A stretch of DNA of 64,000 bases. Source: Acetobacter fallax. GTDB lineage: Bacteria; Pseudomonadota; Alphaproteobacteria; Acetobacterales; Acetobacteraceae. Below are positions 1,907 to 61,381 of the stretch, piece by piece. The notes under the pieces were generated by a model. That model had not been told where the DNA came from. It saw nothing but the letters and a program-made list of their open reading frames with translations, and searched no databases. Both the position numbers and the translations under genes were made by a program. Position 1 is the first letter of the stretch. Every line of letters begins with the position of its first letter. Where the stretch lies: NCBI RefSeq assembly GCF_011516735.1, contig NZ_WOSX01000007.1, positions 62,001-126,000 of the forward strand. The letters run 5' to 3'.

Positions 1907-2077
1907 CAATCCATCCCGTTTCGAAGGCCCGGAAGGGCTACAATTTGCGTATAGCCGAGTGCGGGTCCGATCACTAGCAAGCACTTTCATATTGATTGAA
2001 GAGCGCCGCGTCGTGCGCCTTATTTAACCGCGACCGGTGCGGAGTTAATGTTTATTTAACGGAAAATGGAAGCATTC

Positions 2078-4273
2078 ATGTTGGCAGGCGCCCCCGGTAA
2101 GGCTCTTTTTCAGGGCTCCGAGCGACCAGATCTGCAGGTTATCGCAGCTCAGCGTATTATTCGTCTCGTTTCAAAAGTCACAGCTACTTTCCGTATCAGG
2201 TCTGATGGGACGATTGACATCGGTGATGCTGCAATATGCCGGAACGATGCGCGCTATCAGGCATTTGTCGTCAGACACGCTCTCGAACTGGCGACCCTGC
2301 TTGATGTGGGGCAGCAGCTGTCTCCGGAGCGGGCAATGCCGCGAGCGAGTTTTGCAGCAGCGCGAACTGCTGCTCTGTTTTGTGGTCTGGATGCAGTTCT
2401 TCCGGGCGATGACGTCTGGCGGCCAGACTGGCTCGGCCCCATGAGCAGTGACGTACCTCCCGAAGCGTCCGTGATCGGCGAAGTCTGGCCCATATTGCGG
2501 GTTTTTCTTCCTGTACCTTCAGAAGTGACAGAGCATCTCTCAACCACTGATCTTGAGGATCTCAGGGAGTGGCTTGCCCGCTCCTGGGCATTTATCGGGC
2601 CTGCCGAGACGCTTATGGCCGCAGGTGGTGACGCAAGACTCATGGTCAATCCGCACACGGGCCTGAATCATTATGGCTGTTCGCATCGCCCCAGACCATG
2701 GGCGGTCACGTTCGCATCTTCAACAGCGTCTTCCGTATCGGAGCGTGGATTTTCCGGTGCCGAAAAGGCCCGCCAGCGTTTACAGCACGCGCTCCTTTGC
2801 GATGACAGTAAGGGTCTTTGCGCGACGCTTGCCGGTGAGGTGCGTGCTTTCCTGGCCGTGTATTTCGGGTTGTCACCTGAGGAAGGGATCGTGCTTGCAC
2901 CTTCAGGTACGGATTGTGAACTCGCCGCTCTGGCCATCTCGTTGCTTGGGGCCGGCGGGAAAGCACTCACCAATATTCTGATTGCACCCGATGAAACGGG
3001 CAGCGGTGTGCCTCTCGCTGCTGCGGGGCGCCACTTTGCCGATGATACTGCCCGTCGGTCGAAGGTTTCGCGCGGCCAGATGATTAATGGTTTTGATGGA
3101 CCATGCTCTGGCGACGGCGAAGCTTATATCCAGGTCGAGGACGTGAGGCTGCGGGATACAGAAGGAGAGGCTGTTGCGTCCGACATCCTGGCGAGGCATT
3201 GCCGGGAACGGATTTCCGATGCGATTGCACGAGGGCGTCACGTGCTTCTGCATCAGCTTGATCTGTCGAAAACAGGCCTTCTGGCACCGACAGAGGAGAT
3301 TCTCGAAGCCTTCGCGGACGAATTCGGTAATGCGGTCGATATTGTCGTTGACGCCTGCCAGGATCGTGTGACGCCGGAGCGTGTCGGGGGGTGGGTAGCC
3401 AGCGGTCGTGCCGTCATGATTACCGGATCCAAGTTTGTGACCGGTCCACCATTTTGTGGTGCATTGCTGCTTCCCGCGCAATGGCGCGAGAGACTGAATT
3501 GCGGATATCTGCCGGGAGGCCTGCGCGACTACGCGGGCCAGAACGAATGGCCGGATTGCGCAGCCACCCGGTATCTGCCGGATGATGCGAATTATGGGCT
3601 GATTCTCAGATGGCATGCAGCCATGGCCGAAATGGAGGCTTTCAAAGCTGTTCCGGCTAAGGAGACACGGGCGCGGCTTGAGCGATTTCTGGAGGCGGCA
3701 CGCGATGCGCTGATATCCTGTGACGACATAGCGTTGCTTGAAACGCCGGACCCAGTGAGACCCGCCCTGCCTGGTGCCTGGGATGGCATGACCACAATCC
3801 TCAGCTTTCTTGTCAAAGCGCCGGATTTAACCATGCACGAAACAGGAAGTGAGGGCTTTAAGCCTTTCGGACTTGCGGATGCGCGTCGTCTTTATCACTG
3901 GCTGAATGCGGATCTTAGTCGGATTTTTTCAGCAGATGAGCCCGAACGGATCAGCGGGCTGGCAAAGCGGTTGTGTCACATTGGCCAGCCGGTTGCCGTT
4001 CCATCCGCAATCCTCGGCGGCGCCTGTGCCGGCGCACTGAGAATCTCAGTTGGTGCCCGTCTCGTGTCCGGAGAACCCTCACATGAGGGAATGGATACCG
4101 ACCTGCGTCTTGAGCGTGAAATCGCCGATGTGCGTGAGGTCATCGCAAAAATCAGCCTGATCAGGCGGCACTGGGATCGCATTCGGGCAGTCGACCCTCT
4201 GCCGACCTATGCGCCACTGCCGGATGCTGATGATGTGGAAGATAATATCATGAAACAAAATGGAGATTTCTGA
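2078..4273 (+). CDS. Large PLP-fold (fold type I) protein of unknown substrate
   Basis: The product is about 731 residues. The middle third looks like a fold type I pyridoxal-phosphate enzyme: a G-T-D segment near residue 277 (cofactor phosphate contact), V-V-D-A-C-Q-D near 423 (Asp for the pyridine nitrogen) and T-G-S-K-F near 451 (candidate Schiff-base Lys). The N-terminal 200 residues and C-terminal part match nothing I recognise. Start: an ATG at 2066 is in frame, but the ATG at 2078 has a GGAAG ribosome site 5 nt upstream and is preferred. The stop overlaps the next start (TGATG), so it is translationally coupled to a histidine phosphatase. I infer a two-gene pathway but cannot name the substrate. 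Confidence 0.7.
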   Translation: MLAGAPGKALFQGSERPDLQVIAAQRIIRLVSKVTATFRIRSDGTIDIGDAAICRNDARYQAFVVRHALELATLLDVGQQLSPERAMPRASFAAARTAALFCGLDAVLPGDDVWRPDWLGPMSSDVPPEASVIGEVWPILRVFLPVPSEVTEHLSTTDLEDLREWLARSWAFIGPAETLMAAGGDARLMVNPHTGLNHYGCSHRPRPWAVTFASSTASSVSERGFSGAEKARQRLQHALLCDDSKGLCATLAGEVRAFLAVYFGLSPEEGIVLAPSGTDCELAALAISLLGAGGKALTNILIAPDETGSGVPLAAAGRHFADDTARRSKVSRGQMINGFDGPCSGDGEAYIQVEDVRLRDTEGEAVASDILARHCRERISDAIARGRHVLLHQLDLSKTGLLAPTEEILEAFADEFGNAVDIVVDACQDRVTPERVGGWVASGRAVMITGSKFVTGPPFCGALLLPAQWRERLNCGYLPGGLRDYAGQNEWPDCAATRYLPDDANYGLILRWHAAMAEMEAFKAVPAKETRARLERFLEAARDALISCDDIALLETPDPVRPALPGAWDGMTTILSFLVKAPDLTMHETGSEGFKPFGLADARRLYHWLNADLSRIFSADEPERISGLAKRLCHIGQPVAVPSAILGGACAGALRISVGARLVSGEPSHEGMDTDLRLEREIADVREVIAKISLIRRHWDRIRAVDPLPTYAPLPDADDVEDNIMKQNGDF

Positions 4274-4971
4274 TGGTAGCCGTGACATCCGGACTGATTC
4301 CTGAAGGACAGAAGAATCACGGCAATTTTCTGGATGCGCCGAAACTGGAATCAGGTATCACGCGTTTCTGGCTCATCCGCCACGCTCTGGTTGAGCAAAA
4401 CGCCCGGGCAATGCTCTACGGTACCATGGATGTGCCGCTATGTCCTGAAAGCCTGGTTGCACAGCAACCAATGTATAATGCCTTGGCCCGTCGTTTACCA
4501 TCAGACGCTCTGTGGTTTGTCTCGCCTCTGATCCGCACGCGGCGAACCGCACAGGCAATTCAGAACGCGGGTTATGGTGCGCGGGGCCTGACAGTTGAAC
4601 CGGATATGGTTGAGCAGGATCTGGGTGAATGGCAGGGGTTGCCACATGGCGATCTCCCTGGAAAACTACAGATGCCTCCACATCAGTTCTGGCCCCTCTC
4701 GGGAAATGAATGCCCGCCGGGTGGTGAGAGCATGATGACGGTCTGTTCGCGCGTCGGGGCCGCACTGAGTCGGCTGGCCAGAGATAATGCATCACGGGAC
4801 ATGGTTCTCGTCAGTCATGGCGGAGCGATACGAGCCGCGCTGGCGCATGCTCTGAAAATCACACCGGATACAGCACTCCATTTTTCGATCCAGAATCTTT
4901 CTCTCACGATTCTCGAGTGTCACGATGGTGCCTGGCGTGTCGTTACAGTGAATGAATTGCCAGGAATCTGA
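4273..4971 (+). CDS. Histidine phosphatase family protein
   Basis: The 232-residue product is a member of the phosphoglycerate-mutase/histidine phosphatase superfamily. It has L-I-R-H-A at residues 34-38 (the R-H motif with the phospho-accepting His37), an acidic E-Q-D-L-G-E-W-Q segment near residue 115, and L-V-S-H-G-G-A-I-R near residue 178 carrying the second catalytic His. The first 30 residues form a short extension before the core. The start overlaps the stop of the preceding PLP-fold gene, so the two are coupled. The family acts on many phosphorylated small molecules; the substrate here is not evident. It is followed by 131 bp and a tRNA gene. Confidence 0.85.
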   Translation: MVAVTSGLIPEGQKNHGNFLDAPKLESGITRFWLIRHALVEQNARAMLYGTMDVPLCPESLVAQQPMYNALARRLPSDALWFVSPLIRTRRTAQAIQNAGYGARGLTVEPDMVEQDLGEWQGLPHGDLPGKLQMPPHQFWPLSGNECPPGGESMMTVCSRVGAALSRLARDNASRDMVLVSHGGAIRAALAHALKITPDTALHFSIQNLSLTILECHDGAWRVVTVNELPGI

Positions 4972-5102
4972 GGGTTTTCCAGTGTTTTTCGCAAGCTGTG
5001 CAGAGCGTCTGGACAGGGTGATATTTTTTCAGCTGATAAAATACGTTTTGTCCCTTGCGCCTTCGGAAAGTCTGATCTAAACGAGCCCTCGTCGAACAGG
5101 AC

Positions 5103-5177
5103 GCGGGCGTAGCTCAGGGGTAGAGCACAACCTTGCCAAGGTTGGGGTCGTGGGTTCGAATCCCATCGCCCGCTCCA
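5103..5177 (+). tRNA. tRNA-Gly (anticodon GCC)
   Basis: A full cloverleaf can be drawn: acceptor stem GCGGGCG pairing with CGCCCGC, a D arm with AGCTCAGGGGTAGAGC, anticodon stem CAACC/GGTTG with loop TTGCCAA (anticodon GCC at 5135-5137), T arm with GGTTCGAATCC, and an encoded CCA. The 3' end faces the conjugative element, as expected for a tRNA used as an integration site. The reverse frame across it gives the well-known false peptide GIRTHDPNLG. Confidence 0.97.
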
Positions 5178-5195
5178 GATTTTCCAAGGAAAATC
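5178..5195 (+). other. Perfect hairpin directly after tRNA-Gly
   Basis: An 8-bp stem (GATTTTCC pairing with GGAAAATC, AA loop) begins at the first base after the encoded CCA. It may help 3' processing of the tRNA or mark the crossover region if the tRNA is the attachment site. It has no T-run of its own. Confidence 0.5.
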
Positions 5196-5207
5196 AGGCG
5201 GTTAAAG

Positions 5208-5230
5208 ACGTTCCTTCGGGACCGTTTTTT
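5208..5230 (+). terminator. Rho-independent terminator after tRNA-Gly
   Basis: A stem with one mismatch and a UUCG tetraloop (CGTTCC-TTCG-GGACCG) is followed directly by six T. This is a standard intrinsic terminator shape and sits 30 bp after the tRNA. Confidence 0.8.
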
Positions 5231-5418
5231 GTTTACAGTGTGCCGTAGCACAGGAATGTAAGCATTTTGTAAGCAGCCCGGAGCAAATCGGGGGTGGCTA
5301 CGGCGTAGCGTGCCGAATCCCGTGGCACACATCGTCAGGATGTTCGGGCGGGTGATGTTCATAAGTAGAACAGCGCTCTTGAACGAGATGCCGGCTAACA
5401 AGAGTATGGCAAAGGCCG

Positions 5419-6051
5419 TCATGCCTGTGCTCCTGGCCGTTTCGCGATGCTCGTGACCCATGCATGCAGGGCGGAGGCCTCGTCTGGCAATGCCAGCTTC
5501 AGTCGGCTACGGGCGAAATCCAGCGTGACGAACGCGGTGATGTCAGCGATCGAGAAGGCATTGCCCGCGACATAGGGTACATCGCGCAGCCGGGTGTCCA
5601 GATCGGCCATGAAATCGGCCAGCCTCTGACGGCCGCGCGCGGTAAGCTCGGGGATTTGCGCATAGCCGTGTGGTCCGACCAGTGCGCGGCCCGACAGTCC
5701 CGGCAGGCTGTTCCGTACGGCTTCCATCGCGGCAAGATAGCCGTCGATCTCCATGCGCCGGTCCCACATGCCGATGATGGCGCGTTGTTCTCGCGTCGCG
5801 CCCATCAGAGGGGGATCGGGATGCAACTCCTCCAGATAACGGCAGATGACGGGCACCTCGCTGATCGCGGTGCCGTCGTCCAGTTCCAGGACGGGAACGG
5901 TGCAGGAGGGGTTAAGGAGGCGGAACGTGGGCGCGAACTGCTCGTGCTTCGCCAGATCAACTGTAACGATAGGAATCGTCAGCCCTTTCTCGGCGATGAA
6001 GAAGCGCACACGCCGTGGATTGGGGGCGGTGGGGTAGTCGTAAAGCTTCAT
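5419..6051 (-). CDS. Glutathione S-transferase family protein
   Basis: The product (210 residues) starts MKLYDYPTAPNPRRVRFFIA, a thioredoxin-fold N-terminal GST domain, with the conserved V-P-V-L-E-L-D-D-G segment (cis-Pro and glutathione contact) around residue 50 and S-E-V-P-V-I-C-R-Y-L-E just after. The C-terminal all-helical domain includes F-S-I-A-D-I-T-A, the usual N-capping/hydrophobic staple region. The ATG at 6051 is chosen because upstream codons do not match the family. It overlaps the stop of the upstream SRPBCC-like gene by 4 bp, so the two are coupled. It probably handles an electrophilic compound under control of the divergent LysR gene. Confidence 0.9.
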   Translation of the reverse strand: MKLYDYPTAPNPRRVRFFIAEKGLTIPIVTVDLAKHEQFAPTFRLLNPSCTVPVLELDDGTAISEVPVICRYLEELHPDPPLMGATREQRAIIGMWDRRMEIDGYLAAMEAVRNSLPGLSGRALVGPHGYAQIPELTARGRQRLADFMADLDTRLRDVPYVAGNAFSIADITAFVTLDFARSRLKLALPDEASALHAWVTSIAKRPGAQA

Positions 6052-6831: not shown

Positions 6832-7758
6832 ATGTCGGTTCGGCGACCACCTCTCGATCTGCGGGAATTGCTGTTCGTGCGTGTCATCGCGAGGGAGGGA
6901 AGTATCCATGGAGCCGCACGGGCGCTGGGAGGCAAACAATCTGCCGTAAGCCGGTCCTTGCGGTTACTGGAAGAGCGACTTGGCGTCTCCCTTTTTCGAC
7001 GCACGTCGAGCGGTGCCCGGCTCACCCCGGCGGGAGTTGCCTTTCTGCGAGAGGCTGAGAAGTTGCTCGATGGAACAGTCGGACTGTACGAGCGCACGCG
7101 GCGTTGGAGCCGGGGCGAGACCGGCGTCATCTCCGTGGGCGTCCAGGGCAGCATCCCACCCGGCCGGATCTCGGCGATACTGGAGTCGTACAGCCTTGCG
7201 CAACCCGGTATCTCCTTCACTTATCGGGATAATGCGAAAAAAGAACTGTTCCAGGCCCTGGAACAGGAGGAGATCGACCTCGCGATAATGACGCTGCCCC
7301 TGCCCGGCAGCATGGTGGCCACCGTCCCGCTCTGGAGCGATCGTGTCGTTGCGATCATGTCGGCCGAACATCCGATCGCACAGGTCGGAACCGCGTCATG
7401 GGCTGAGTTGCATGATGGAATCTTTCTGATCGGCAAGGATGATACCGGCGAGGAACTGCTCGCGCTCTTGATGCGCAAGATGCGGCAGGCGGGATTCGTG
7501 CCGGTGACACGTCAGGAGGCGGTCAGAAGCCTGCGGGTCGTCGCATTGGCAGCGAATGGCAGCGGCATCGCTCTGTTGCCGGATGCCTGGCTGGGTTTTC
7601 TGCCCGCTGCCATCCGGGAGCGGATCGCGGTAGTGGAAGTCATCGACGGGGACGGATTTTCCCACTTCGCCTATGGCGCGGCTTGGCATCGTGAGCGCTG
7701 CCCACCGGCCGCGAGGACAGTCATCCGTTTTCTGGAGCAGCAGGCGACTGCGTTTTAA
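6832..7758 (+). CDS. LysR family transcriptional regulator
   Basis: The 308-residue product has an N-terminal winged helix-turn-helix (residues about 8-66; G-S-I-H-G-A-A-R-A-L-G-G-K-Q-S-A-V-S-R-S is the classic LysR helix pair) and a C-terminal substrate-binding domain starting near residue 92. It is transcribed away from the SRPBCC/GST operon and is likely to regulate it. Its last 38 bp overlap, on the opposite strand, the end of the DUF2274 gene that closes the trb operon, so transcription from the two sides converges. The co-inducer is unknown. Confidence 0.93.
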   Translation: MSVRRPPLDLRELLFVRVIAREGSIHGAARALGGKQSAVSRSLRLLEERLGVSLFRRTSSGARLTPAGVAFLREAEKLLDGTVGLYERTRRWSRGETGVISVGVQGSIPPGRISAILESYSLAQPGISFTYRDNAKKELFQALEQEEIDLAIMTLPLPGSMVATVPLWSDRVVAIMSAEHPIAQVGTASWAELHDGIFLIGKDDTGEELLALLMRKMRQAGFVPVTRQEAVRSLRVVALAANGSGIALLPDAWLGFLPAAIRERIAVVEVIDGDGFSHFAYGAAWHRERCPPAARTVIRFLEQQATAF

Positions 7759-7981
7759 CGGGTGCCCGCCGTGGCTCCTGCCGGAGCTTTCGGAACGCGC
7801 GGTCGGAGGTGATAAAGCCACGGATCATGTGCGGTACGAGACGGGCCGGATCGACGGACTGGCCGTTCTGGCTGACCAGGGCAGCATAAGCGACGAGATC
7901 GCGATGCAGGTCCGCAGGCAGGTCCACGGTGACACGGACCGGCTTCTCGTCGGGAATTTCGGTGATGCGCAGCTTCGTCAT
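7721..7981 (-). CDS. DUF2274 domain protein, last gene of trb operon
   Basis: This is an 86-residue protein, MTKLRITEIPDEKPVRVTVD at the start, matching the small DUF2274 family usually found directly after trbI. The P-V-R-V-T-V-D-L-P-A-D-L-H-R-D-L pattern near residue 14 resembles a ribbon-helix-helix DNA-binding fold, so an autoregulatory or partition-like role is possible but unproven. It overlaps trbI by 4 bp (ATGA), and its 3' end runs 38 bp into lysR on the other strand. Confidence 0.8.
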   Translation of the reverse strand: MTKLRITEIPDEKPVRVTVDLPADLHRDLVAYAALVSQNGQSVDPARLVPHMIRGFITSDRAFRKLRQEPRRAPVKTQSPAAPENG

Positions 7982-9180
7982 GGAGCCGGTTCCTTTGGGT
8001 GCCAGGGTTTCAGGACAAGGTCGCGATTCAGGATAAGCGTGAACGGCAGGCCCGGGCGGTCTGTCAGCGTCGGCTGAATATTCAGGCTGCGATCAATCAG
8101 CCGGTTGCCGACCATAGAAAACCCGTTGCTCGCGCCGGAGCGGATGGCCTGCATCAGGTTGTTCTCGTTCCATGACGTCCCGGCCTCGGAGCCCACGCTG
8201 AGGAGGGTCGTGACGAGGGCCGCCTTGAACAGTTGCCCCCAATGATTGTTCACCTCATCGGACAGGCCAGACTGGCCGATGGCGTCGCCACCGGGCAGCT
8301 TTTCCAGGACGAGGCTTTCGCCATTCGGATAGATCAGCCGCGTCCAGATGATCTGGGTGCGCTGCTGCCCGAAGGAAATGCCGCTGTTATAGGCTCCGAA
8401 CAGGGTGCTACCCTGCGGGACGAGCAAGAACCGGCCTGTCGGACTGTCATAGACGTTCTGGGTCACATGCCCCACGATCTGGCCGGGCAGATCGGAACTG
8501 ATCTTCGTGTTCAGCGCGCCGGCAATGACGGTCCCGGCCTGGAGCATATAGGGCGAGGCGGGAGATACGATCCGGTCCGGGCTGACCGTCGCGCGATCCG
8601 GCTGACCTGCCAGAAAGGCGCGATTGCCGGTCTGCTGGTCGGGGCCGGTCGGTGATGCCTGTGCTCCGGGAGCGGTGGCCATGACCGGAATCGTCTGCGC
8701 AGCCTGGCCCTCCCGCGCCTCGATCTGCGCGAAGAGCCTGCTGGTGCGTGCCGCCTCGATCTCCTGATCGCCACGCCGGTCTCCCATGCCGGAAACCGGT
8801 CCCGCGCGACCGTTCCGCTGTGCATCGAGGATCGGCTTGCCGAGATCGCCGGGCAAAGGCGGCCCGAGTTTCGGGGTGGCGGTATAGTCATTGGGGAGTG
8901 CGGCCAGCCCGTCGGCCGAGGGGCGGGTGTCGGTGTCCTGTGCCCCCTGGAGCGGCCCCTTCTGCGCACCATTTTGCAGCGCGTAGCCCAGCGCAAGACC
9001 GATCGCGAGCATCCCCGCACCACCCAGCGTCCAGATGACGGGGCGCGAGAGCCGGACCACCGGCGGACGCTGCGCGCGCAGCCGCAGATCGGGAGAGGGC
9101 GGCGGGGATGATGGTCCTGTTCCGCTTCCGCTTGTGGTGGCTCCCGTATTCCCTTCCGGGCGCTCTTCCGCGCCGCTCAT
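7978..9180 (-). CDS. trbI: TrbI/VirB10 conjugal transfer protein
   Basis: TrbI is the VirB10-type core-complex protein that links inner and outer membranes of the type IV secretion channel. The 400-residue product has a short cytoplasmic proline-rich N-terminus, one transmembrane segment at about residues 48-68 (V-I-W-T-L-G-G-A-G-M-L-A-I-G), a flexible Pro/Gln-rich linker and a C-terminal VirB10 beta-barrel domain from about residue 210 (L-Q-A-G-T-V-I-A-G-A-L onward, ending with L-I-L-N-R-D-L-V-L). Start and stop overlap neighbours by 4 bp, so it is coupled with trbG upstream and DUF2274 downstream. Confidence 0.95.
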   Translation of the reverse strand: MSGAEERPEGNTGATTSGSGTGPSSPPPSPDLRLRAQRPPVVRLSRPVIWTLGGAGMLAIGLALGYALQNGAQKGPLQGAQDTDTRPSADGLAALPNDYTATPKLGPPLPGDLGKPILDAQRNGRAGPVSGMGDRRGDQEIEAARTSRLFAQIEAREGQAAQTIPVMATAPGAQASPTGPDQQTGNRAFLAGQPDRATVSPDRIVSPASPYMLQAGTVIAGALNTKISSDLPGQIVGHVTQNVYDSPTGRFLLVPQGSTLFGAYNSGISFGQQRTQIIWTRLIYPNGESLVLEKLPGGDAIGQSGLSDEVNNHWGQLFKAALVTTLLSVGSEAGTSWNENNLMQAIRSGASNGFSMVGNRLIDRSLNIQPTLTDRPGLPFTLILNRDLVLKPWHPKEPAP

Positions 9181-10178
9181 GACTTCCTGCCATCCGTGCG
9201 CACGATCCGTACCCGCTGCTCGGAATGCCTGTCGCCCAGCCGCAATTCGGCGGCGGCAAACAGGCGATCGACGATCATCCAGTTCTGCCGGACGCGGTAG
9301 TTCACCAATTCCGGCCCGCCATCGGCCCCCAACACGAACAGCGGCGGCAGTTCGCCCTGCCCGATACCGGACGGAAACGCGATATAGACCTTGTGGCCAT
9401 CGTCAAACGCCCGGCTGGGCAGCCAGGGCGGCGTGCCACCTTTCACCGGCTGAATAGCGTAACGGAAATTCAGCGCATTCAGATCCAGCCCCGCATCCAC
9501 CGGGGCTGCATCATCGGCGTCGCTGTCCTGCCGATGCAGGGCAATCAGGTCGTCCTCGGGATAATCCCAGGACACCGACGCCATATAGGTCGTGGGTGTC
9601 GCCCGCAGTTCGGCAAGGTAGCTCCTCCGGTCGGTATTGACGATCAGATTGGTGATGAGATCCGGTCGCGTCGGCTTGACCAGGATATGCACGCGCCTGG
9701 TCGTGCCCGCGCCACTGGTGGTATCGCCGACAATCCAGCGCACGGTGTCCCCCACCGCGACCGGGCCAGTACCGACCAGCTTCTCGCCCTGCTGGAGCAT
9801 GATGTCGGTGATCTCGCCGGGCGCGGCATAGACCTGATAGAGCGCGCCCGCGCTGTAGGGATAGACCTGCACCGCATTCACATAACCGGCCCGCGTCGGC
9901 TGGATGCGGGCGGCAAGATTGGCCTGGGTCACGCGCACGGTAGGGTCAGCCGCCTCGGGCACGACATGGGCACGCCGCAAGGGTGGAAGCGGCTTGAGTT
10001 GACCCGGCAGGGGAAGCAGCCGCGGGACTTCCACCACCCGCACAGGCTTCGGCGGATCAGGCAGGAGCATGGCCTGGGCCGCGTCGTCATATCGTATGAC
10101 GGGTGGATGGTACTGTTGCGCGCAACCCGCCAGGGGCAGGGTCAGCAACGGCAAAGCACGAAGAGCACGACGGATCAT
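9177..10178 (-). CDS. trbG: TrbG/VirB9 conjugal transfer protein
   Basis: TrbG is the VirB9-type outer-membrane-associated part of the mating channel. The 333-residue product begins with a lipoprotein-like signal (MIRRALRALPLLTLPLAGC, candidate lipidated Cys19). The C-terminal half is rich in beta strands and contains the family pattern N-F-R-Y-A-I-Q-P and R-A-F-D-D-G-H-K-V-Y-I-A-F-P. It overlaps trbF upstream and trbI downstream by 4 bp each. The separate trbH seen in RP4 is absent; the Cys here may supply the outer-membrane anchor. Confidence 0.95.
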   Translation of the reverse strand: MIRRALRALPLLTLPLAGCAQQYHPPVIRYDDAAQAMLLPDPPKPVRVVEVPRLLPLPGQLKPLPPLRRAHVVPEAADPTVRVTQANLAARIQPTRAGYVNAVQVYPYSAGALYQVYAAPGEITDIMLQQGEKLVGTGPVAVGDTVRWIVGDTTSGAGTTRRVHILVKPTRPDLITNLIVNTDRRSYLAELRATPTTYMASVSWDYPEDDLIALHRQDSDADDAAPVDAGLDLNALNFRYAIQPVKGGTPPWLPSRAFDDGHKVYIAFPSGIGQGELPPLFVLGADGGPELVNYRVRQNWMIVDRLFAAAELRLGDRHSEQRVRIVRTDGRKS

Positions 10179-47175: not shown

Positions 47176-48915
47176 CTATAGCCCGAGCCCCCGGTTCCGG
47201 GTGAAGCTCCAGTCGATCCCGCCATCGTCGCGTGCGACGCCGGAGACGTGCTGGCCCCGCTGCTTCTCCAGCGACGGCGTCCATGGCACGAGCTGGAACT
47301 GGAGGCCGTCATCGATCATCGCATAGCGGCCGGAGGCCAGGGCCATGCGTTGCCGATACGTGCCGGTGACATACTCGCCCGATGCCGACTGACTGAACGT
47401 CCGGCCCGTCTCAGCGGCGAGCCGCTCTCCCACTTCGTGAAGCTCGCGGTCCCTGAGTTTCCCGATCAGGTTGCGCGCCAGGATCACCCCCTGCGTCCGG
47501 CGTTCGGCAAGACCCTGCTCAATCAGTTGCTCGGTCCGCCGCTCCATCGCCTCATGCACTTCGGCACCGAACCCCGCCTGCCCCAATGCAACAGGGTCGC
47601 GCGCCACTGCCTGCCGGTCGAGCCAGGTAGCCCCGCGCGCCGTCACCTGATCCTCGATCGACAGGTCGGAACGGACGGCCAGCGCCACGCGACGCTGCCC
47701 CTTCCTGTCATCGAAGGCGCGAAGCTCCACGACCGACCCCATGCTGCCATCACCGGTCGCGTCGAGATCGGGAAAACGGATATGATGCGTGCGGCCATCC
47801 ACGCCGTCGATGACGGCGTAGGCCGTGCCTTTCAGCTCGTCGTCCAGCCCCCGATCGACCAGCCTGCCGACGACAGGAACGTCGAGGCTTTCACCCGCCA
47901 GGACGTAGCTCGATGTGCTCCGCTCGATCCCGCGCTCCGTCAGCGAGCGGTGGATACGCTTGATGATGTCGCCGCGCTCCCCGAACTCGCGGAGCGTCGC
48001 CTCGGCGGATTCATCCAGCATCCATTGTCCCTGACCGACCTGATGGGCGAGACCGAGCCCCTCCAGGTGGCGCAGGCGCCCGACCTTCAGGGCCTCGAAC
48101 GGATCAGGCTGCCGATCCGGCGCTGGCGCCATGTCGATGATGCCGTTGCGGCCCGCATCGCGGGCGAGTTGCCGGTCGAGCTGGGTCCAGTGCTCGGCGC
48201 CGACCTGGCGTTCGAGGGCACGATGGATTTCGACGTCATTGCGTAGCCCGAGTTCCTGCGTCACCAGATCCTGGGCACGGGCGCGCAGGCCCTCCCGGAT
48301 ATAATCGCGGGAGATCACGAGGTCGCTGCCATCCTCGGCTACGCCCCGCACGAGGATGTGGACATGGGGATGCTGGGTGTTCCAGTGATCCACCCCCACC
48401 CAGTCCAGCTTCGTGCCGAGGTCTTTTTCCATCTGCCCGACCAGTTCGCGGGCATAGCCCTTGAGGTCGGCCATGTCGGGCGCGTCCTCGGGTGAGATGA
48501 TGAAACGGAAATGGTGGCGATCATCCTCGCAGCGCTCGGCGAACGCCTTCGGGTCGGCATCGTCGATGCCAGGACCGAAGAGCCGCGCCTTCTCGCCGTC
48601 CTTCGTCACCCCTTCCCGGCGCAGGTAACGCAGATGGGCGGCGAGCGGCGCCTTGCGCCCGCTGTGGCGCACGACACGGGCCTTGACGGTCACGCGGCGG
48701 ACACGGCTGGTCAGCAGACGATTGGCCCTGGCTGCTGCGACGCGGCCACGCCCGAAGGACGAGCGGGAACCGCCGCCGCTGCGGCCCGATCGGAAGCCAC
48801 CGCCTCCGGCACGCTGGGCCGAGGCGAGGGCCTGGGCGACGAAGGGCTTGAGCCGCTGGGCGCGGGGCGAGCGGATGCGGCCCAGACGGGGCTGGAAATC
48901 ATTCTCGCGGGCCAT
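47176..48915 (-). CDS. Relaxase (VirD2-like, DUF3363)
   Basis: This 579-residue protein nicks the transfer origin and pilots the strand. After a basic Arg/Gly/Ser-rich N-terminus (to about residue 70), the nuclease domain has H-H-F-R-F-I-I-S-P-E-D near residue 137 and D-H-W-N-T-Q-H-P-H-V-H near 175-185, the three-His metal site. The C-terminal half is the DUF3363 region. The ATG at 48915 is chosen because upstream codons are intergenic in character. The cargo (ars end) lies immediately downstream. Confidence 0.93.
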   Translation of the reverse strand: MARENDFQPRLGRIRSPRAQRLKPFVAQALASAQRAGGGGFRSGRSGGGSRSSFGRGRVAAARANRLLTSRVRRVTVKARVVRHSGRKAPLAAHLRYLRREGVTKDGEKARLFGPGIDDADPKAFAERCEDDRHHFRFIISPEDAPDMADLKGYARELVGQMEKDLGTKLDWVGVDHWNTQHPHVHILVRGVAEDGSDLVISRDYIREGLRARAQDLVTQELGLRNDVEIHRALERQVGAEHWTQLDRQLARDAGRNGIIDMAPAPDRQPDPFEALKVGRLRHLEGLGLAHQVGQGQWMLDESAEATLREFGERGDIIKRIHRSLTERGIERSTSSYVLAGESLDVPVVGRLVDRGLDDELKGTAYAVIDGVDGRTHHIRFPDLDATGDGSMGSVVELRAFDDRKGQRRVALAVRSDLSIEDQVTARGATWLDRQAVARDPVALGQAGFGAEVHEAMERRTEQLIEQGLAERRTQGVILARNLIGKLRDRELHEVGERLAAETGRTFSQSASGEYVTGTYRQRMALASGRYAMIDDGLQFQLVPWTPSLEKQRGQHVSGVARDDGGIDWSFTRNRGLGL

Positions 48916-49209
48916 TGGCGCCCCCAATGTGCGAAAAAGACAGGTGCAACAAGGAAAAGTAGGGTCGGCAAACATTGGCGGAGAGGGAGAAACATTGTGT
49001 AGGAAAGGAAAAAACGCTGGAAAACCAACACCCCAACCGAGGCGCAATGTGCGCCCTTTTATCTCGCCTCTCCTTTGCCCAGACCCAGTGCGGTCCCTGA
49101 TCCCTGCTACGATCCGTCATGAGAAACGCTGGACCACGCCGGACCACGATTATGCGCTGACCTGCGACCGGCTGCGAATGGGCGGTAAGGAGAGGCGGAT
49201 TCGGCATGG
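48916..49209. other. Candidate origin of transfer (oriT) region
   Basis: This 294-bp gap upstream of the relaxase has no gene but several repeats: AAACATTG twice exactly 20 bp apart (48970 and 48990), CAATGTGCG twice exactly 120 bp apart (48925 and 49045), and the palindrome GGCGCA-ATG-TGCGCC (49041-49055) followed by CTTTT. Position beside the relaxase and repeat content fit oriT. No exact RP4-type nic sequence was found. Confidence 0.5.
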
Positions 49210-56236: not shown

Positions 56237-56389
56237 TTACGCGGAGGCCTCCCCGTCGTGGCATTTTGCTGCGAATTGCGCGCATACCTGGTTCAGTTCA
56301 CGCTCGATTTTGGCCCGCTCACGACGGCTGAGGTGAAAGCTGGTCAGTTCGGCGCGCAGCATCTGGATCTGGTCGTGTAGCGTGGTCAT
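56237..56389 (-). CDS. Small conserved-type hypothetical protein (50 residues)
   Basis: The product begins MTTLHDQIQMLRAELTSFHL and is a charged amphipathic helix throughout (S-R-R-E-R-A-K-I-E-R-E-L-N-Q-V). AGGAG lies 7 nt before the ATG. The regular heptad-like pattern suggests a coiled coil. Function is unknown. A stem-loop element lies about 82 bp upstream. Confidence 0.65.
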   Translation of the reverse strand: MTTLHDQIQMLRAELTSFHLSRRERAKIERELNQVCAQFAAKCHDGEASA

Positions 56390-56729
56390 CGTCCTGCTCC
56401 TTTCGTTTTTCGAAGACAGGCCGTCGCCTCATGCGCGCGTGAATCGGGTCAAGGATCGCCGCAGGCGACCGCCCCAGCGGCGCGCGGGGGAGCCGATTTT
56501 GTCTGGTGTGCCCGTAGGGTGCGCCGGGCAAAATTGGGGGGACCGCGCGTCCTTGAGGCGGTTCACGCCGGGCATGGTACAATGGGAAGGCTGAGGGAAG
56601 CCCTGTTCCCCTTTCTTGCCCACACATTGGCAGATTGGGCGCGGCGCGACTGGTGCGCCCACCCGCCGGTTCGCGATCGGTCATGCGAAGGCCCCACCCG
56701 GACCGGCCGGGCGGGGGATCGCTGGCACC
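56390..56729. other. 340-bp stretch without a gene
   Basis: No coding frame is convincing. It contains the ribosome site of the 50-residue gene and one stem-loop element at 56471-56537. Confidence 0.6.
56471..56537. repeat. Stem-loop element A
   Basis: A GC-rich block with C-A-G-C-G-G is followed by an outer stem CCGATTTTG/CAAAATTGG (56493-56501 with 56529-56537, one G-U pair) and an inner hairpin GTGCCC-GTA-GGGTGC (56508-56522). It has the same layout as elements at 57.2 and 60.1 kb. Confidence 0.5.
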
Positions 56730-57056
56730 TCAGTCGCCGTTGCGGCGGCCGTTGGGGCGGGACCAGATCAGGCTGTAGCCCTCGCCGTCCTCGTCATCGA
56801 AGAGGTTGGCGAAGATCGGGGCGTTGAAGCTCGGATCGTCGAGCTTGAGGCTCAGATAGTCGCGCCCCTCGTTGGAGCGCCGGGACCAGGCCGCTCCGAT
56901 CTCGACCCGGCCGACGAAGACGCGGTGGCTGGGGGCATTTTCGTTCAGGCGCGTGGTCTCGGGGGCGATGCGGACGTTGGGGGTCTGGAGCGAGAGGGTG
57001 ACGATCTCGCCGTTATATCCGTTGCCGACTTTCTTGAAGGTGCCGATGGTAGCCAT
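56730..57056 (-). CDS. DUF736 family protein (copy 2)
   Basis: The 108-residue product starts MATIGTFKKVGNGYNGEIVT and has the DUF736 core with R-V-F-V-G-R-V-E-I-G-A-A-W and D-D-P-S-F-N-A-P-I-F-A-N-L-F. It is only distantly similar to the copy at 49.9 kb, so the two are old paralogues rather than a recent duplication. Function is unknown. A stem-loop element lies about 100 bp upstream. Confidence 0.9.
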   Translation of the reverse strand: MATIGTFKKVGNGYNGEIVTLSLQTPNVRIAPETTRLNENAPSHRVFVGRVEIGAAWSRRSNEGRDYLSLKLDDPSFNAPIFANLFDDEDGEGYSLIWSRPNGRRNGD

Positions 57057-57652
57057 GATACTGCTCCGTGATCTCTGTTACCGAGCCCGCACCATTGCGG
57101 CCTCGATGGCGATCGGACAGACGGAGGCGAGCGGCGGCGCATCCCGTAGGGACCGAAGCGCAGCGGAGGACGGCGGGACGGAATTTTCTTGTTTCGCGAG
57201 GAATGACGGCGCAGCCGTCAGGGGAAGAAAATTATGGACCGCTGTTGCGCCATGGCCGATCGAGGCGCAGCCGACCTTCGGCTAGATCAGCCATCTTGAG
57301 AGGCGGCATGCGTGCGCGGCCCGACAGAGCACACATCACGGAGACTATGGCCACCCGCGCCCCACGCAAGTGTCGGCCAGGAAGGGGAAGGCATCGTCAT
57401 GCCCTGCTTCCGACCCTGCACACGCCCCGTTCCGGGACTGCGTTTCGCACGGACACGCCCTGCCTTCCGGGATTCCACCGGCCGATGCTGACAGGAAGCG
57501 CTGGACGTCCACGCTCCAGGGAAAGAGCACCTTCAGCCAATATGCTGCAATCAGGGCCTCATCGATCGCTCCTGCCATACCCTCCTGACAGCGAGGCGGC
57601 CAGATGCGAAAGCCCCCGATCCTGTCCTGCCTCGCCGGTTGCCAGAGCGGTG
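57057..57652. other. 596-bp stretch without a convincing gene
   Basis: Several open frames cross it, but none has a ribosome site or recognisable sequence; the long rightward one continues antisense over the next gene. It contains stem-loop element B at 57158-57233 near its left end. The right half (57.3-57.65 kb) shows nothing I can name. Confidence 0.55.
57158..57233. repeat. Stem-loop element B
   Basis: The block GCGCAGCGGAGGACGGCGGG (57158-57177) is followed by outer stem AATTTTCTT/AAGAAAATT (57182-57190 with 57225-57233) and inner hairpin TGACGGC-GCA-GCCGTCA (57204-57220). The block matches element C in 16 of 20 bases, all differences being transitions. Confidence 0.6.
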
Positions 57653-58093
57653 TCAGACCCGCGCGATATTGCCGCCGGACGGTCCGGGTGGGGCCACGGT
57701 TGTAAAGCGGATGAAAGCGGTGACGCCCACCGCGATCGCGCCGATGATGGAGAAAAAGAGCTGCCACGCCGGAGACGGCATCAGCATCTGGGCGATCCCA
57801 TGTGTCGTGCTGTAGCCCATGATAATGGCGGGCACCGTATAGAGCAGGACGATCAGCAGCTTGAGCCACATCCACGGCACCAAGGCGAAGGCGACCTGGC
57901 CAATAACGAAGGTTGCAGCGCCCGCGACGAAACCGACGATGATCCCGCCGACAACACCAGCACCCGCACCATACGCCCAGAACCCGGCCATCAGACCCAT
58001 GGCGCAGGGCAGGGCGAAGACTGCCACGGTAAAGAACAACCAGCACAGGAAGCCAATGCCGGCGACGAGCAGGAAGGGAGCAAGGATGAACAT
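57653..58093 (-). CDS. Polytopic membrane protein of unknown function
   Basis: From the ATG at 58093 (GGAG 9 nt upstream) the product is 146 residues with about five membrane helices and many Gly/Ala/Val (M-F-I-L-A-P-F-L-L-V-A-G-I-G at the start, G-V-V-G-G-I-I-V-G-F-V-A-G-A inside). Longer versions would add a Trp-rich N-terminus that looks artificial. No transporter signature is seen. It stands alone between the DUF736 gene and the toxin-antitoxin pair. Confidence 0.65.
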   Translation of the reverse strand: MFILAPFLLVAGIGFLCWLFFTVAVFALPCAMGLMAGFWAYGAGAGVVGGIIVGFVAGAATFVIGQVAFALVPWMWLKLLIVLLYTVPAIIMGYSTTHGIAQMLMPSPAWQLFFSIIGAIAVGVTAFIRFTTVAPPGPSGGNIARV

Positions 58094-58334
58094 GGCGGCG
58101 GTCTCCGTGCAACCGACAATGTCGGACGGTCGCGCCTGCCACCACCACCACGGCGCAACCCGCATTATAGCGCAGATGATACGGTGACCGGAACGAAAAT
58201 CCGCGCGGCTTACGTCCCGCCGGTGACGATATCATCGAAATCTATCGCTGGTATGCGGACGTTGCGGTCAATCAGGTCGAGCGTTATTGCCTTCCCCCGT
58301 GATCCGGTGGCGTTGCGAAGAACCTTGCGATCCA

Positions 58335-58349
58335 TAGCACCTGGTGCTA
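58335..58349. promoter_or_regulatory. Palindrome upstream of toxin-antitoxin operon
   Basis: TAGCACC and GGTGCTA flank one central T, 12 bp before the toxin start. TTGCGA (58325-58330) and TACATA (58348-58353) could be a promoter spaced 17 bp. Autoregulatory dyads of this kind are usual for HigBA-type pairs. Confidence 0.6.
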
Positions 58350-58360
58350 CATAGGAGGTC

Positions 58361-58747
58361 ATGACCAATGCCGAGCCATCCCAGCGGGCATTCAAGACCG
58401 CCTGGTTCGCCAGGGCGGCCCGGAAAGCTCGCATCAAAGACGATGAACTCTGCAAAGCGATCCGGGAGGTCATGAAGGGTCAGGCCGTCGATCTGGGTGG
58501 TGGTGTCTTCAAGAAGCGCCTGAACAAGAACCTGCATCGCAGCATTATTCTTGCGAAAGGCGGTCGATACTGGATCTACGCCTATCTGTTCGCGAAGAAG
58601 GACCGGGACAATATCGATAGCGATGAACTGGAAGACTTCCGGACCCTCGCCAAAGCCTATGCCGTGCTGACCGGGGAACAGGTCGAACGGCTTTTGAAGG
58701 ATCGAGACCTGACGGAGATATGCCATGGCGATGAAGAGAAAAAATAG
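58361..58747 (+). CDS. Type II toxin, RelE/HigB-like
   Basis: The 128-residue product has the family pattern F-K-T-A-W-F-A-R-A-A-R-K near residue 11, L-G-G-G-V-F-K-K-R-L-N near 45, H-R-S-I-I-L-A and Y-W-I-Y-A-Y-L-F-A-K-K-D-R, matching RelE-superfamily mRNA-cleaving toxins. AGGAGG is very close (2 nt) to the ATG. The antitoxin gene follows, overlapping by 23 bp, the reversed order known for higBA. Confidence 0.85.
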   Translation: MTNAEPSQRAFKTAWFARAARKARIKDDELCKAIREVMKGQAVDLGGGVFKKRLNKNLHRSIILAKGGRYWIYAYLFAKKDRDNIDSDELEDFRTLAKAYAVLTGEQVERLLKDRDLTEICHGDEEKK

Positions 58748-59054
58748 CTTCCGGAGCGACATTTCCGAGGCCATTCATTCCGGGGCGGTAATGCTGCACA
58801 AGGTCGGCGCGCTCGACAAGGCGACGATGCGTGATTTTGACACGCGCCATCTGGTGGTGCCCCCTGCGATCGAGCCGATCGAGATCAAGCGTCTCCGCGA
58901 GGCGAACAATGTCAGCCAGCCGGTCTTCGCGCGGTATCTGAACACGAGCGAAAGCACGGTCGAGAAGTGGGAGAGCGGCGCCAAACGGCCGAGCGGGATG
59001 GCGCTCAAGCTGTTGAGCGTCATTCAGAAGCACGGTCTTGAGGTTCTTGCCTGA
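58725..59054 (+). CDS. HTH antitoxin, HigA/NadS-like
   Basis: The 109-residue product has a C-terminal XRE-type HTH (I-K-R-L-R-E-A-N-N-V-S-Q-P-V-F-A-R-Y-L-N, residues about 53-72, then S-T-V-E-K-W-E-S-G). The N-terminal half should bind the toxin. GGAG lies upstream of the ATG at 58725; a second ATG two codons on is possible. The pair would stabilise the element in the host. Confidence 0.88.
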   Translation: MAMKRKNSFRSDISEAIHSGAVMLHKVGALDKATMRDFDTRHLVVPPAIEPIEIKRLREANNVSQPVFARYLNTSESTVEKWESGAKRPSGMALKLLSVIQKHGLEVLA

Positions 59055-59084
59055 GACGCTGGCTTGCGGGGAAGGAGAGAGCGC

Positions 59085-60014
59085 TCACGCGCCGCCTCCG
59101 AACCGCAGGACCGGGATACCGAGCCGCTTTGCCTTGTCGGCCAGATTTTCCTGGATGCCTGAACCGGGGAAGACGATGACGCCGATCGGCATAGTGTCGA
59201 GCAGCGCATCGTTACGACGGAAGGGCGCCGCCTTGGCATGCCTGGTCCAGTCCGGCTTGAAGGCGATCTGCACGATATCGCGGTGATCGGCCCAACGTGA
59301 GGCAATGAACTCAGCACCTTTGGGCGAGCCACCGTGGAGCAGCACCATGTCGGGATGCTTGGCCCGCACCTTATCCAGCCGGTCCCAGATCAGGATATGG
59401 TCGTCGAAGTCCAGGCCCCCGGTCACGACCACCTTGGGGCCGGGCGGGACCAGCAACTCGCCCTCGGCGCGGCGTCGGGCGTTGAGGAAATCGCGGCTGT
59501 CGATCATGGAGGCCGTCATGGTGCGACGTGACACCAGCGAGCCGGCCTTCGGACGCCACGCGCTCAGGGTCAGGCGCTCGAACTGCTCCTGCGCCTCGTC
59601 GCGGAAGATCTCGTAGGCGTTGCGGCGCTCGATCAGGGTCAGCCCTTCGGCGATCAGCCGCTCCAGTTCCACCGAGCGGATCTCGCTGCCATCCTGTTCC
59701 TGCTGGCTCCGTTTCTGCGCCTGCTCGTTGCGGTCAAGCTCACGCTCAACCTGGCCGACCATGCGGTGGAAGATGTTCACGGTGGACCAGAGCAATGCTT
59801 CGAGATCGGCTTCCAGCCGTGTGTCGGTCAGCGTCGCAGCGATGGCGTCGAAGATGTCGGCCACAGCACCCCCGATGCGCTGCGCTTCGGGTAGCGGCCT
59901 GGGGTCCGGCTCGTCCGCGAAGGGACGGTAGCCATACATCTGGAGTTCGGTCAGCACATGCGCGGTGGATGAAGCGGCGTGCGGCGGTTCGAAATCGTCG
60001 GTCATGCGGGTCAT
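59085..60014 (-). CDS. DUF2493 (SLOG-like) domain protein
   Basis: The 309-residue product has a helical N-terminal half and a C-terminal Rossmann-like domain: K-V-V-V-T-G-G-L-D-F-D-D near residue 195, L-L-H-G-G-S-P-K-G-A-E near 225 and F-P-G-S-G near 285. This is the DUF2493 pattern, a SLOG-type nucleotide-binding family. Its role in conjugative elements is unknown. Stem-loop element C lies about 106 bp upstream. Confidence 0.85.
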   Translation of the reverse strand: MTRMTDDFEPPHAASSTAHVLTELQMYGYRPFADEPDPRPLPEAQRIGGAVADIFDAIAATLTDTRLEADLEALLWSTVNIFHRMVGQVERELDRNEQAQKRSQQEQDGSEIRSVELERLIAEGLTLIERRNAYEIFRDEAQEQFERLTLSAWRPKAGSLVSRRTMTASMIDSRDFLNARRRAEGELLVPPGPKVVVTGGLDFDDHILIWDRLDKVRAKHPDMVLLHGGSPKGAEFIASRWADHRDIVQIAFKPDWTRHAKAAPFRRNDALLDTMPIGVIVFPGSGIQENLADKAKRLGIPVLRFGGGA

Positions 60015-60334
60015 GAGGCTGTCCTCCCAGGTCTCCGGCTGCGCCCTTCGCGGCCTTTCCGGGGGCGGACAGCGGCAGACCAGGGACGGGCCGGAACCGC
60101 GCGCTGGCGCGCGGCCGCAGCACAGCGAAGGATGGCAGGGGGCCGGCTATTTTGCCTCGCGATGTAAAGCGCCCCCACAGGGCGCGACGGAAAATAGCCG
60201 GCTCACGCCATTGAAGGCCCGGCCCGGCTGACGCCCGCTCCCCACTTGAAAGGCCGGGGCGCGGACCTGCCGGACGGGAGGCACGACAGGCCCGCCGACA
60301 GAAGACGGCCCCCCCACTCCTCTTTCCGGCCCGC
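60015..60334. other. 320-bp stretch without a gene
   Basis: No believable coding frame is present. The main feature is stem-loop element C at 60120-60202. Confidence 0.6.
60120..60202. repeat. Stem-loop element C
   Basis: The block GCACAGCGAAGGATGGCAGG (60120-60139) is followed by a perfect 12-bp outer stem GCCGGCTATTTT/AAAATAGCCGGC (60142-60153 with 60191-60202) and an inner hairpin GCGCCC-CCACA-GGGCGC (60169-60185). It is the strongest of three related elements. Confidence 0.65.
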
Positions 60335-61381
60335 TCAGGTATCGGCGGCCTCCAGAAAGCGTGCCACGTCCGCTGGCGCGAGTTGCGGATGCAGGATCGC
60401 CCGCAGCGCGCCGCGTCCCAGCGCACGGAGATCATCATTGAAATCGCCCAGCCGTGGCGACAGGCCGATCAGTTCGATCCCGGCGTCACCCGCGCGGGCG
60501 TGCAGCGTCGCCAGCGCCTGATCCCCGGCCGGATCGTCGTCGCGCAGGACGTAGAGACGGCGTAGCAGCGGCGGAAAGATCAGGGCAGCGAGATGTGCCG
60601 AAGACAGGCAGGCGGCCAATGGCAGATCGGGCAGAACCTGCCGCAGCGAAAGCACCGTCTCGATGCCTTCCCCGGCGGCGAGCACGTCGGATGCCACCCC
60701 GAAGCGCACGGCATGACCGAGCAGCCCGCCCAAGGCACGGCGCGGATGGTCGACCGGTGCCTTGCCACGGCCGTCCGCCGCCAGCCAGGTGCGATGCACA
60801 CCGGTCAGAGTGCCGTCGAGGTCGGTGACAGCGGCGATCATGGCGGGCCAGGTCTCGGTCAGACCGTCCTCGTCCGGGCGGTAAAAGCAACGCGGATGGA
60901 AGCGCAGGGCTTCGGTTCCGTGCAAAAGCGTAATGTCGCGTCTACGGAGATACGCGTCTACGGATGTGCCTATGATCGGCCCGGACATGGCCCAGAGCCG
61001 TCGTGCCGCTTCGGAAGAACTGGCGGAAGCACGCTCACGGGCAGGTCGGTCCTGTGACGGCGGCACTGGGTCAGGATGCGGCAGGCTGAGGAAGGCGCGT
61101 GCCTCGTCGGCCACGTCGCGGAAATCCACCAGGCCGAGGCTTTCGCGGATCACGTCGAGCAGGTCGCCATGCTCACCCGACTGAGCGTCCGTCCATTTTC
61201 CCGCCCTGCCGTTGGCGGTGTCGTGGAGCCGGACGAACAGCGACCGGCCGGGCGTATTGCGCACGTCACCGACCAGCCAGTAATTGCCGTGACGGCGACC
61301 GGCGGACAGATACTGCCGGCACACCGCCTCCGCGTTCTCCGCCAGCCGACGGGCGAGATCGCCTGCATCATGCAAGGTCAT
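60335..61381 (-). CDS. Toprim-domain primase-like protein
   Basis: The 348-residue product has an N-terminal region with L-V-G-D-V-R-N-T-P-G-R-S-L and a C-terminal Toprim domain: A-A-G-E-G-I-E-T-V-L-S near residue 237 (catalytic Glu) and L-Y-V-L-R-D-D-D-P-A-G near 280 (Asp-x-Asp). Proteins of this group prime DNA synthesis on mobile elements. Its start overlaps the upstream gene by 14 bp. Confidence 0.9.
   Translation of the reverse strand: MTLHDAGDLARRLAENAEAVCRQYLSAGRRHGNYWLVGDVRNTPGRSLFVRLHDTANGRAGKWTDAQSGEHGDLLDVIRESLGLVDFRDVADEARAFLSLPHPDPVPPSQDRPARERASASSSEAARRLWAMSGPIIGTSVDAYLRRRDITLLHGTEALRFHPRCFYRPDEDGLTETWPAMIAAVTDLDGTLTGVHRTWLAADGRGKAPVDHPRRALGGLLGHAVRFGVASDVLAAGEGIETVLSLRQVLPDLPLAACLSSAHLAALIFPPLLRRLYVLRDDDPAGDQALATLHARAGDAGIELIGLSPRLGDFNDDLRALGRGALRAILHPQLAPADVARFLEAADT

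Follow-up and report, generated by a model that had tools for sequence, protein, structure and literature searches.

What do three stem-loops do that stand, one by one, in front of leftward genes in Acetobacter fallax? The stretch of DNA analysed (the window) comprises 64,000 nucleotides (nt), positions 62,001 to 126,000 of contig NZ_WOSX01000007.1 in assembly GCF_011516735.1, and judging by its genes it is part of a conjugative element. The original prediction, made from the letters alone, described three related stem-loops in its right part, here called A, B and C, upstream of genes for a 50-residue protein, a DUF736 protein and a DUF2493 protein, respectively, and suggested an undescribed regulatory RNA or repeat family. 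Comparison of sequences and predicted folds leads us to conclude that B and C are members of one widespread, apparently undescribed family. Its elements are probably single-stranded DNA (ssDNA) hairpins of the transferred strand (T-strand), situated in the leading region, that would serve as single-strand promoters of establishment genes and work in a manner like Frpo of plasmid F.

All three hairpins had the stems claimed for them: twelve perfect pairs in C (60142-60153 with 60191-60202), nine in B (arms AATTTTCTT/AAGAAAATT) and nine in A, one of them G.T. The predicted edges of A, B and C lie 82, 102 and 106 base pairs (bp) from the start codons, and the 20-bp block said to be shared by B and C has 16 matches, all four differences being transitions. 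The predicted extents were correct for the cores and too short for the folds: when whole intergenic stretches were folded, the cores were the tips of nested hairpins of approximately 150-280 nt (Table 1). The prediction did not list the conserved loop TTG-NY-TCGCG, which is common to B and C and not found in A. Three covariance models (R1, R2 and R3) were searched against the window. Element B was matched by R2 (4e-17) and R3 (2.5e-17), and element C by R1 (1.3e-19), R2 (1.2e-7) and R3 (3.1e-14); since R2 was built from B-type sequences, its match to C indicates that the two are homologous. None of the models matched A; of the three elements said to be related, B and C form one family, and A has the layout in common with them. 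In relatives found by blastn, a pattern with fixed flanks recovered 20 variants of the A-type inner stem (33 instances), with 145 Watson-Crick, 79 G.T, 1 A.C and 5 other pairs across the variants. Element A may have diverged from the family or may have acquired a like layout independently.

Plasmid searches by protein and by DNA returned 735 and 1183 records; a first reading took in ten regions, and 80 loci were then drawn from genomes. In Rhodospirillales, Sphingomonadales, Hyphomicrobiales, Rhodobacterales and Caulobacterales alike, DUF736 and DUF2493 genes are preceded by the same structures. Among 99 sources (the window and 98 loci, numbered L, some of which duplicate the window's own genome), pattern matches gave 64 distinct C-type cores in 89 sources and 54 distinct B-type cores in 70. 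The C-type core reads TTTTG-NY-TCGCGATG-N-AAAG-[hairpin]-N-CGGAAAA and the B-type core TTTCTTG-NY-TCGCGAGGAATG-[hairpin]-CAGGGGAAGAAA. The loop shared by both is asymmetric, with approximately TTG-NNN-CGCGAGGAA on one side and GGGGAA opposite (in the C-type version CGCGATGNAA and CGGAA), where fully conserved columns include ones fixed by the search pattern. The inner stem is A/T-rich (77% A+T in the inner seven arm positions vs. 29% in the outer five), and the apical hairpin varies in sequence and length. A B-type element precedes DUF2493 in L072 and L080, and the two types are therefore interchangeable. The C-type pattern was absent from ten sources (L008, L016, L030, L037, L056, L057, L072, L076, L080 and L085), of which L016 has a C-type element by model and L037 a core that misses the pattern by one base. 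The B-type pattern was absent from 29, several of them short loci and one (L006) with a B-type element by model. In L008, the Gluconacetobacter plasmid pGDIPal5II, the B-type element is kept before DUF736 and there is no C-type hairpin directly before DUF2493 (7765-8080).

The stems covary. The two single N positions of the C-type core were C-G in 40, T-A in 18, G-C in 4 and mismatched in 2 of the 64 cores. When the structure was named, 97.7% of the cells were paired in A4 (15 C-type sequences; both sides changed in 10 of 20 pairs), 91.4% in A5 (20 B-type sequences; 11 of 18 pairs) and 85.4% in A6 (23 mixed and distant sequences; 13 of 15 pairs). For each alignment 0 of 500 shuffles attained the observed values, and slid partners were at most 60.5% paired. 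B-type and C-type homologues across five alphaproteobacterial orders differ on both sides of pairs, which excludes a chance origin of these hairpins.

Model searches extended this range. R2 matched in 20 of 289 genomes of the class, the window's own included, and R3 in 51 of 398 Pseudomonadota genomes, own included, where about 4 would be expected by chance at an E-value of 0.01 per genome; these E-values are rough, 4 of the 51 genomes have a best E-value above 0.001, and at least two (G000 and G012) supplied model sequences. Seven of the matched genomes lie outside the class, one of them with a weak match (G299), and the seven pattern-matching copies from such genomes (L200, L201, L203-L206 and L208) all precede DUF736. 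One genome (G455) has eight matches. The covariance-model search that the prediction proposed thus yielded further copies in related elements and covariation in their stems, the reverse of the two outcomes it had named as counting against it.

A stem under selection tolerates G.T (or G.U) pairs better than A.C pairs, and since what reads as G.T on one strand reads as A.C on its complement, the wobbles of a stem tell which strand folds. We counted them in the direction of the + strand of the window. In the first ten outer pairs of the pattern-matched cores there were 24 G.T and 10 A.C in C-type, and 40 G.T and 8 A.C in B-type elements. A further count kept 207 elements with at least seven Watson-Crick pairs of twelve and a GGAA-type anchor, a selection that favours paired stems and not G.T over A.C; in the first nine pairs of 129 distinct B/C-type arm pairs there were 40 G.T and 4 A.C, the limits of nine and ten pairs being our choice. 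The latter G.T share (0.91) was reached in 0 of 500 column shuffles, where it was 0.60. With 40 non-redundant arm pairs (13 G.T and 2 A.C), 0 of 2000 shuffles reached the observed share. A count over 43 groups, some spurious candidates included, gave 23 G.T and 5 A.C, and in these groups the template strand was the more stable in 33 (RNA parameters) and 35 (DNA parameters). When the first 45 of 107 non-redundant regions were folded with DNA parameters, the template strand was predicted to be more stable in 42; the mean z was -4.2 against -2.9, and the energies differed by -6.2 kcal/mol on average. A bias was also seen in control segments taken 900 nt away (29 of 44, mean -1.65), and part of the difference is therefore due to composition. 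In the window, the stretch around A (56430-56600) had a predicted -99 on the + strand vs. -66.9 on the - strand (RNA parameters). By these pairing and folding statistics the strand under selection for folding is the + strand, which is the template of the downstream genes and not their mRNA.

Relaxases of the types found here cut at TATCCTG^C or GCG^CCCT, and the 3' side leads. In L009 and L017, TTTATCCTGCC occurs on the element strand between the relaxase and SLT genes; the nic-like motif in this gap reads TATCCTGC, and the elements lie beyond it. Variants at the same place are TCTATCTTGCC in L012 and GGCGCAATGTGCGCC-TTTTATCTCGCC in the window, both recognised by their position after looking and then written into the pattern. 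A pattern scan of twelve whole loci gave sites of this kind only in these four, each time on the element strand. Two Ti-type plasmids, L014 and L210, have TTGCGCCCT in the traA-traC gap, on the + strand of the former and the - strand of the latter, which in both is the element strand. Thus all six placed nic-like sites (four consensus and two variant, from two relaxase types) put the elements, as far as motifs tell, on the T-strand and in the leading region. In the window the T-strand would run rightward, as the + strand, from the candidate origin of transfer (oriT). No nic-like site was placed in L129. In L211, ATCCTG occurs three times close to the relaxase (twice on the + strand, once on the - strand), and none of these matches was taken as nic.

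The elements also keep a nearly constant distance to the genes that follow them. Genome-wide searches gave 95 distinct pattern-matching places: 53 before DUF736, 28 before DUF2493, 11 before another gene and 3 skipped as duplicates. The eleven comprise two ArdC genes (ArdcN by Pfam in both), two ParB-like genes (ParB_N in the one tested), three small proteins, a 65-residue protein, an IS110-like transposase and a probably broken DUF736 frame (both assigned by eye), and one place left unassigned. The gene-context table behind this list has 267 pattern-matching instances, those remaining after eleven loci (ten duplicates and L099) had been left out. In L129 the gene for ArdA (Pfam 1e-41) is preceded by an element that only the models detected. 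Measured from the stem end on the loop side, the start codon lay at a median distance of 133 nt for DUF736 (136 instances, 5-95% 120-138) and 136 nt for DUF2493 (113 instances, 5-95% 120-151). Where a locus had at least two elements, all had the same orientation in 78 of 80 cases (77 of 79 with duplicates removed). The exceptions are L065 and L172, in which an inverted DUF736 gene with its element adjoins tyrosine-recombinase-like genes.

Folding of the template strand, its identity with the T-strand, the leading-region position, the fixed spacing and the antirestriction genes downstream are together what a single-strand promoter predicts. As the T-strand enters the recipient, each hairpin would fold into a short duplex recognised by the host RNA polymerase, or by a helper bound to the conserved loop. 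Transcription would start near the A/T core and run leftward into DUF736, DUF2493, ArdA, ArdC and similar genes, until second-strand synthesis removed the hairpin and so shut the promoter. That synthesis may also take its primer from this start. The A/T core would be the melting part, comparable to a -10 box, and the loop the recognition part.

The hairpins Frpo1 and Frpo2 of plasmid F rebuild -10/-35 boxes and are needed for early expression (PMC9849209). The likeness to the present elements extends to the leading region, a T-strand that is the template, an ssDNA hairpin, and separate copies in front of two groups of early genes (ygeAB; ssb to psiA) (PMC9849209). When we folded the region upstream of ssb in F, it too had an A/T core inside a long nested hairpin. 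The present elements differ in their conserved asymmetric loop (CGCGAGGAA/GGGGAA), in their genes (DUF736 and DUF2493), and in having no -10/-35 boxes. They share with Frpo a motif-based leading-region position with the T-strand as template and a predicted stable stem-loop on that strand; lacking both the boxes and sequence similarity to known Frpo, as judged by R3 in F, they would not belong to the Frpo family proper. Frpo-like candidates in anti-defence islands are likewise proposed T-strand ssDNA promoters before anti-defence genes, but they were found by BLAST to known Frpo sequences and the -35/-10 consensus, and the main text of that paper does not mention DUF736, DUF2493, DUF932, Alphaproteobacteria, rhizobia or Agrobacterium (PMC11541004). 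The EGeRS1 regions of pLS20 are similar in being long structured stretches before establishment genes such as ardC, but there the transferred strand is the non-template strand and here it is the template; for this reason, the authors of that study deemed an ssDNA promoter highly unlikely (PMC8708921). The literature searched, which held no preprints and few subscription papers, contained no description of the present hairpins and no paper combining any two of DUF736, DUF2493 and the leading region.

Several observations weigh against a promoter function on the T-strand. No -35/-10 boxes were found: in 41 non-redundant elements the best match of the stem to TATAAT was 3/6 in 32 and 4/6 in 9, and the two-box score was not clearly above that of shuffles (5.8 vs. 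5.3), in a scan along the linear strand. In C-type arm positions 11-14 the wobbles were 32 A.C vs. 7 G.T, though mismatches are common there and the ungapped stem has mostly ended. The nic sites are motif matches, two of the six being variants recognised afterwards, and because of synteny the DUF736 and DUF2493 copies are not independent of each other. Of 104 model matches (better strand), 20 do not fit the sequence pattern and do not enter the gene counts. Among six further plasmid regions, models matched in L209, L210 (before DUF2493), L213 and L214; they detected no element before the DUF736 gene of L210, and none anywhere in L211 and L212, though both carry DUF2493 genes. Upstream of ssb in F the two strands have nearly the same folding energy (-72.4 and -71.6), without the strand bias of the present elements, and R3 had no match up to an E-value of 10 in the F leading region (48000-70000).

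The elements may form a second, independent putative class of ssDNA promoter, without sigma-70 boxes and read via the asymmetric loop TTG-NNN-CGCGAGGAA/GGGGAA beside an A/T duplex, a proposal that we make tentatively. It is possible, and held with like reserve, that this class is widespread in conjugative elements of Alphaproteobacteria and of some other Pseudomonadota, their early genes being read only while single-stranded. To our knowledge, enterobacterial plasmids such as F and ColIb-P9 are the main systems in which expression of protective genes before the second strand is made has been worked out. Should the elements be single-strand promoters, the same strategy would be used across alphaproteobacterial plasmids and integrative and conjugative elements, with a different recognition signal; the model would mark the first-expressed genes in many elements, DUF736 and DUF2493 included, and would show which strand is transferred with nothing more than the sequence at hand. 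What is new would then apparently be a variant recognition signal within a known kind of promoter.

The main rival is second-strand priming, with or instead of transcription. Sites of the ssi kind, e.g. ssiA/ssiB of RSF1010, are hairpins on ssDNA, a likeness that we draw from description and not from sequence. The T-strand hairpins would then be recognised, perhaps via the loop, by the Toprim/DUF7146 protein or a host primase, and the neighbouring genes would be incidental. Their sequence-conserved unpaired loop and variable apical hairpin fit such a site, and a Toprim gene adjoins C in the window and its counterpart in seven of the relatives that were read. However, priming needs neither a fixed distance to gene starts nor a separate copy per gene, and we regard it as an unlikely sole role. 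The two functions are not exclusive: Frpo is named both promoter and primer site, and reportedly a 1997 paper by Masai and Arai carries both roles in its title.

Another rival is an RNA, antisense or small, that is read rightward, folds as the + strand and acts on the genes. It would share the folded strand, and wobble counts cannot separate G.U in RNA from G.T in DNA. But between 56200 and 60400 there were 0 sigma-70-type promoter-like sites on either strand (shuffles 0.7), and Rfam had no match at an E-value of 5 in 56300-60400. Nor would such an RNA account for the agreement of folded strand and T-strand in all six placed cases, a coincidence that points to ssDNA; we consider this rival improbable. 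At gathering score the only Rfam match in the window was a tRNA, and in seven related loci only rRNA and tRNA were matched. Between 56200 and 60400 there were three terminator-like sites (shuffles 3.1), none of them an element. An ordinary promoter or terminator was rejected as the identity of the elements, since none coincides with a promoter-like or terminator-like site.

That the leftward mRNAs begin with a structured leader, be it a riboswitch, an attenuator or a fold hiding the ribosome site, is very improbable. Such a leader would suit the position 82-106 bp before the start codons and the outermost stem of B, which pairs the Shine-Dalgarno region of DUF736; yet on the mRNA strand the wobbles are A.C, and the coding strand folds less well, the template being favoured in 42 of 45 regions. 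For B and C, what stands of the original prediction is an undescribed structured family whose stems covary and which recurs in related elements; an RNA structure is not supported for the mRNA leader. Double-stranded binding sites or dispersed palindromic repeats without a single-strand function, suggested by the near-palindromic C-type cores (R1 also scores the opposite strand of C, at 36 vs. 86 bits) and by small palindromes inside some apical loops, are the least credible, as the structure is strand-asymmetric with an asymmetric loop, compensatory changes and a fixed gene context.

Table 1. Hairpins, neighbouring genes and transfer-related features of the window
Feature	Position	Strand	Remarks
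Element A, whole nested hairpin	~56430..56576	+	core 56491-56539
Element B, whole nested hairpin	~57064..57343	+	core 57172-57244; upstream of DUF736
Element C, whole nested hairpin	~60037..60272 (ends approximate)	+	core 60136-60208; upstream of DUF2493
50-residue open reading frame downstream of A	56237..56389	-	template strand +
DUF736 gene downstream of B	56730..57056	-	PF05284, 1.3e-34
DUF2493/YAcAr gene downstream of C	59085..60014	-	PF10686, 1.9e-29
Relaxase, Relaxase and DUF3363 domains	47176..49047	-	
Toprim/DUF7146 primase-like gene	60335..61381	-	candidate partner in the priming explanation
Candidate oriT	49041..49068	+	inverted repeat, then TTTTATCTCGCC, a variant of the TTTATCCTGCC of relatives, at the same place

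Conjugative-element genes of the window encode TrbI, CagX, VirB8, TrbL, TrbE-like, TrbB-like (T2SSE) and TraG-like proteins and an S26 peptidase, alongside the relaxase, SLT, DUF736, ParA and RPA proteins. The right part holds the genes behind A, B and C, the Toprim gene and a DUF932-like gene just below the Pfam cut-off; the 50-residue frame had no Pfam family at the cut-off. Between B and C, a RelE-type toxin gene and a helix-turn-helix gene (58361-59054, + strand) oppose the leftward genes. A DUF2493 protein identical to that of the window occurs in loci of Acetobacter, Asaia, Endobacter and Gluconacetobacter, and hairpins of the A, B and C types are also found in a second, related region of the window's own genome (L006, G000:C36:14000-30000).

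Nine perfect pairs, 57064-57072 with 57335-57343, make up the outermost stem of B, in which the Shine-Dalgarno region of DUF736 is paired with sequence some 270 nt farther upstream. The ribosome site could thus be hidden in a long read-through mRNA and would stay exposed in a transcript starting inside hairpin B.

Among the relatives, L183 (genome G436) has two elements 750 bp apart (1842 and 2593), each before a small-protein frame, and a third (4638) before DUF2493, with a coupling-protein-like gene adjoining. It was rejected as a repeat of the three-element order of the window, the middle element preceding a small-protein frame and not DUF736, and its 57-residue protein was rejected as a homologue of the 50-residue protein for want of a BLASTP alignment. 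In the ArdA-linked element of L118/L129 (9632-9711), TTG is separated from the CGCG motif by a short additional insertion. In L172 three tyrosine-recombinase-like genes in a row, presumably akin to RIT elements, are flanked by inverted copies of DUF736 and hairpin (1926-5571), and in L065 such genes are accompanied by an inverted DUF736 and hairpin (7387-9489), as if the recombinase unit carried the two as a module. Larger palindromes with similar letters occupy the apical loops in L014 (6435-6545), L041 (7746), L044 (6629), L084 (9936-10042), L016 (8521-8636) and L038 (4773-4872), as if small palindromic repeats insert there.

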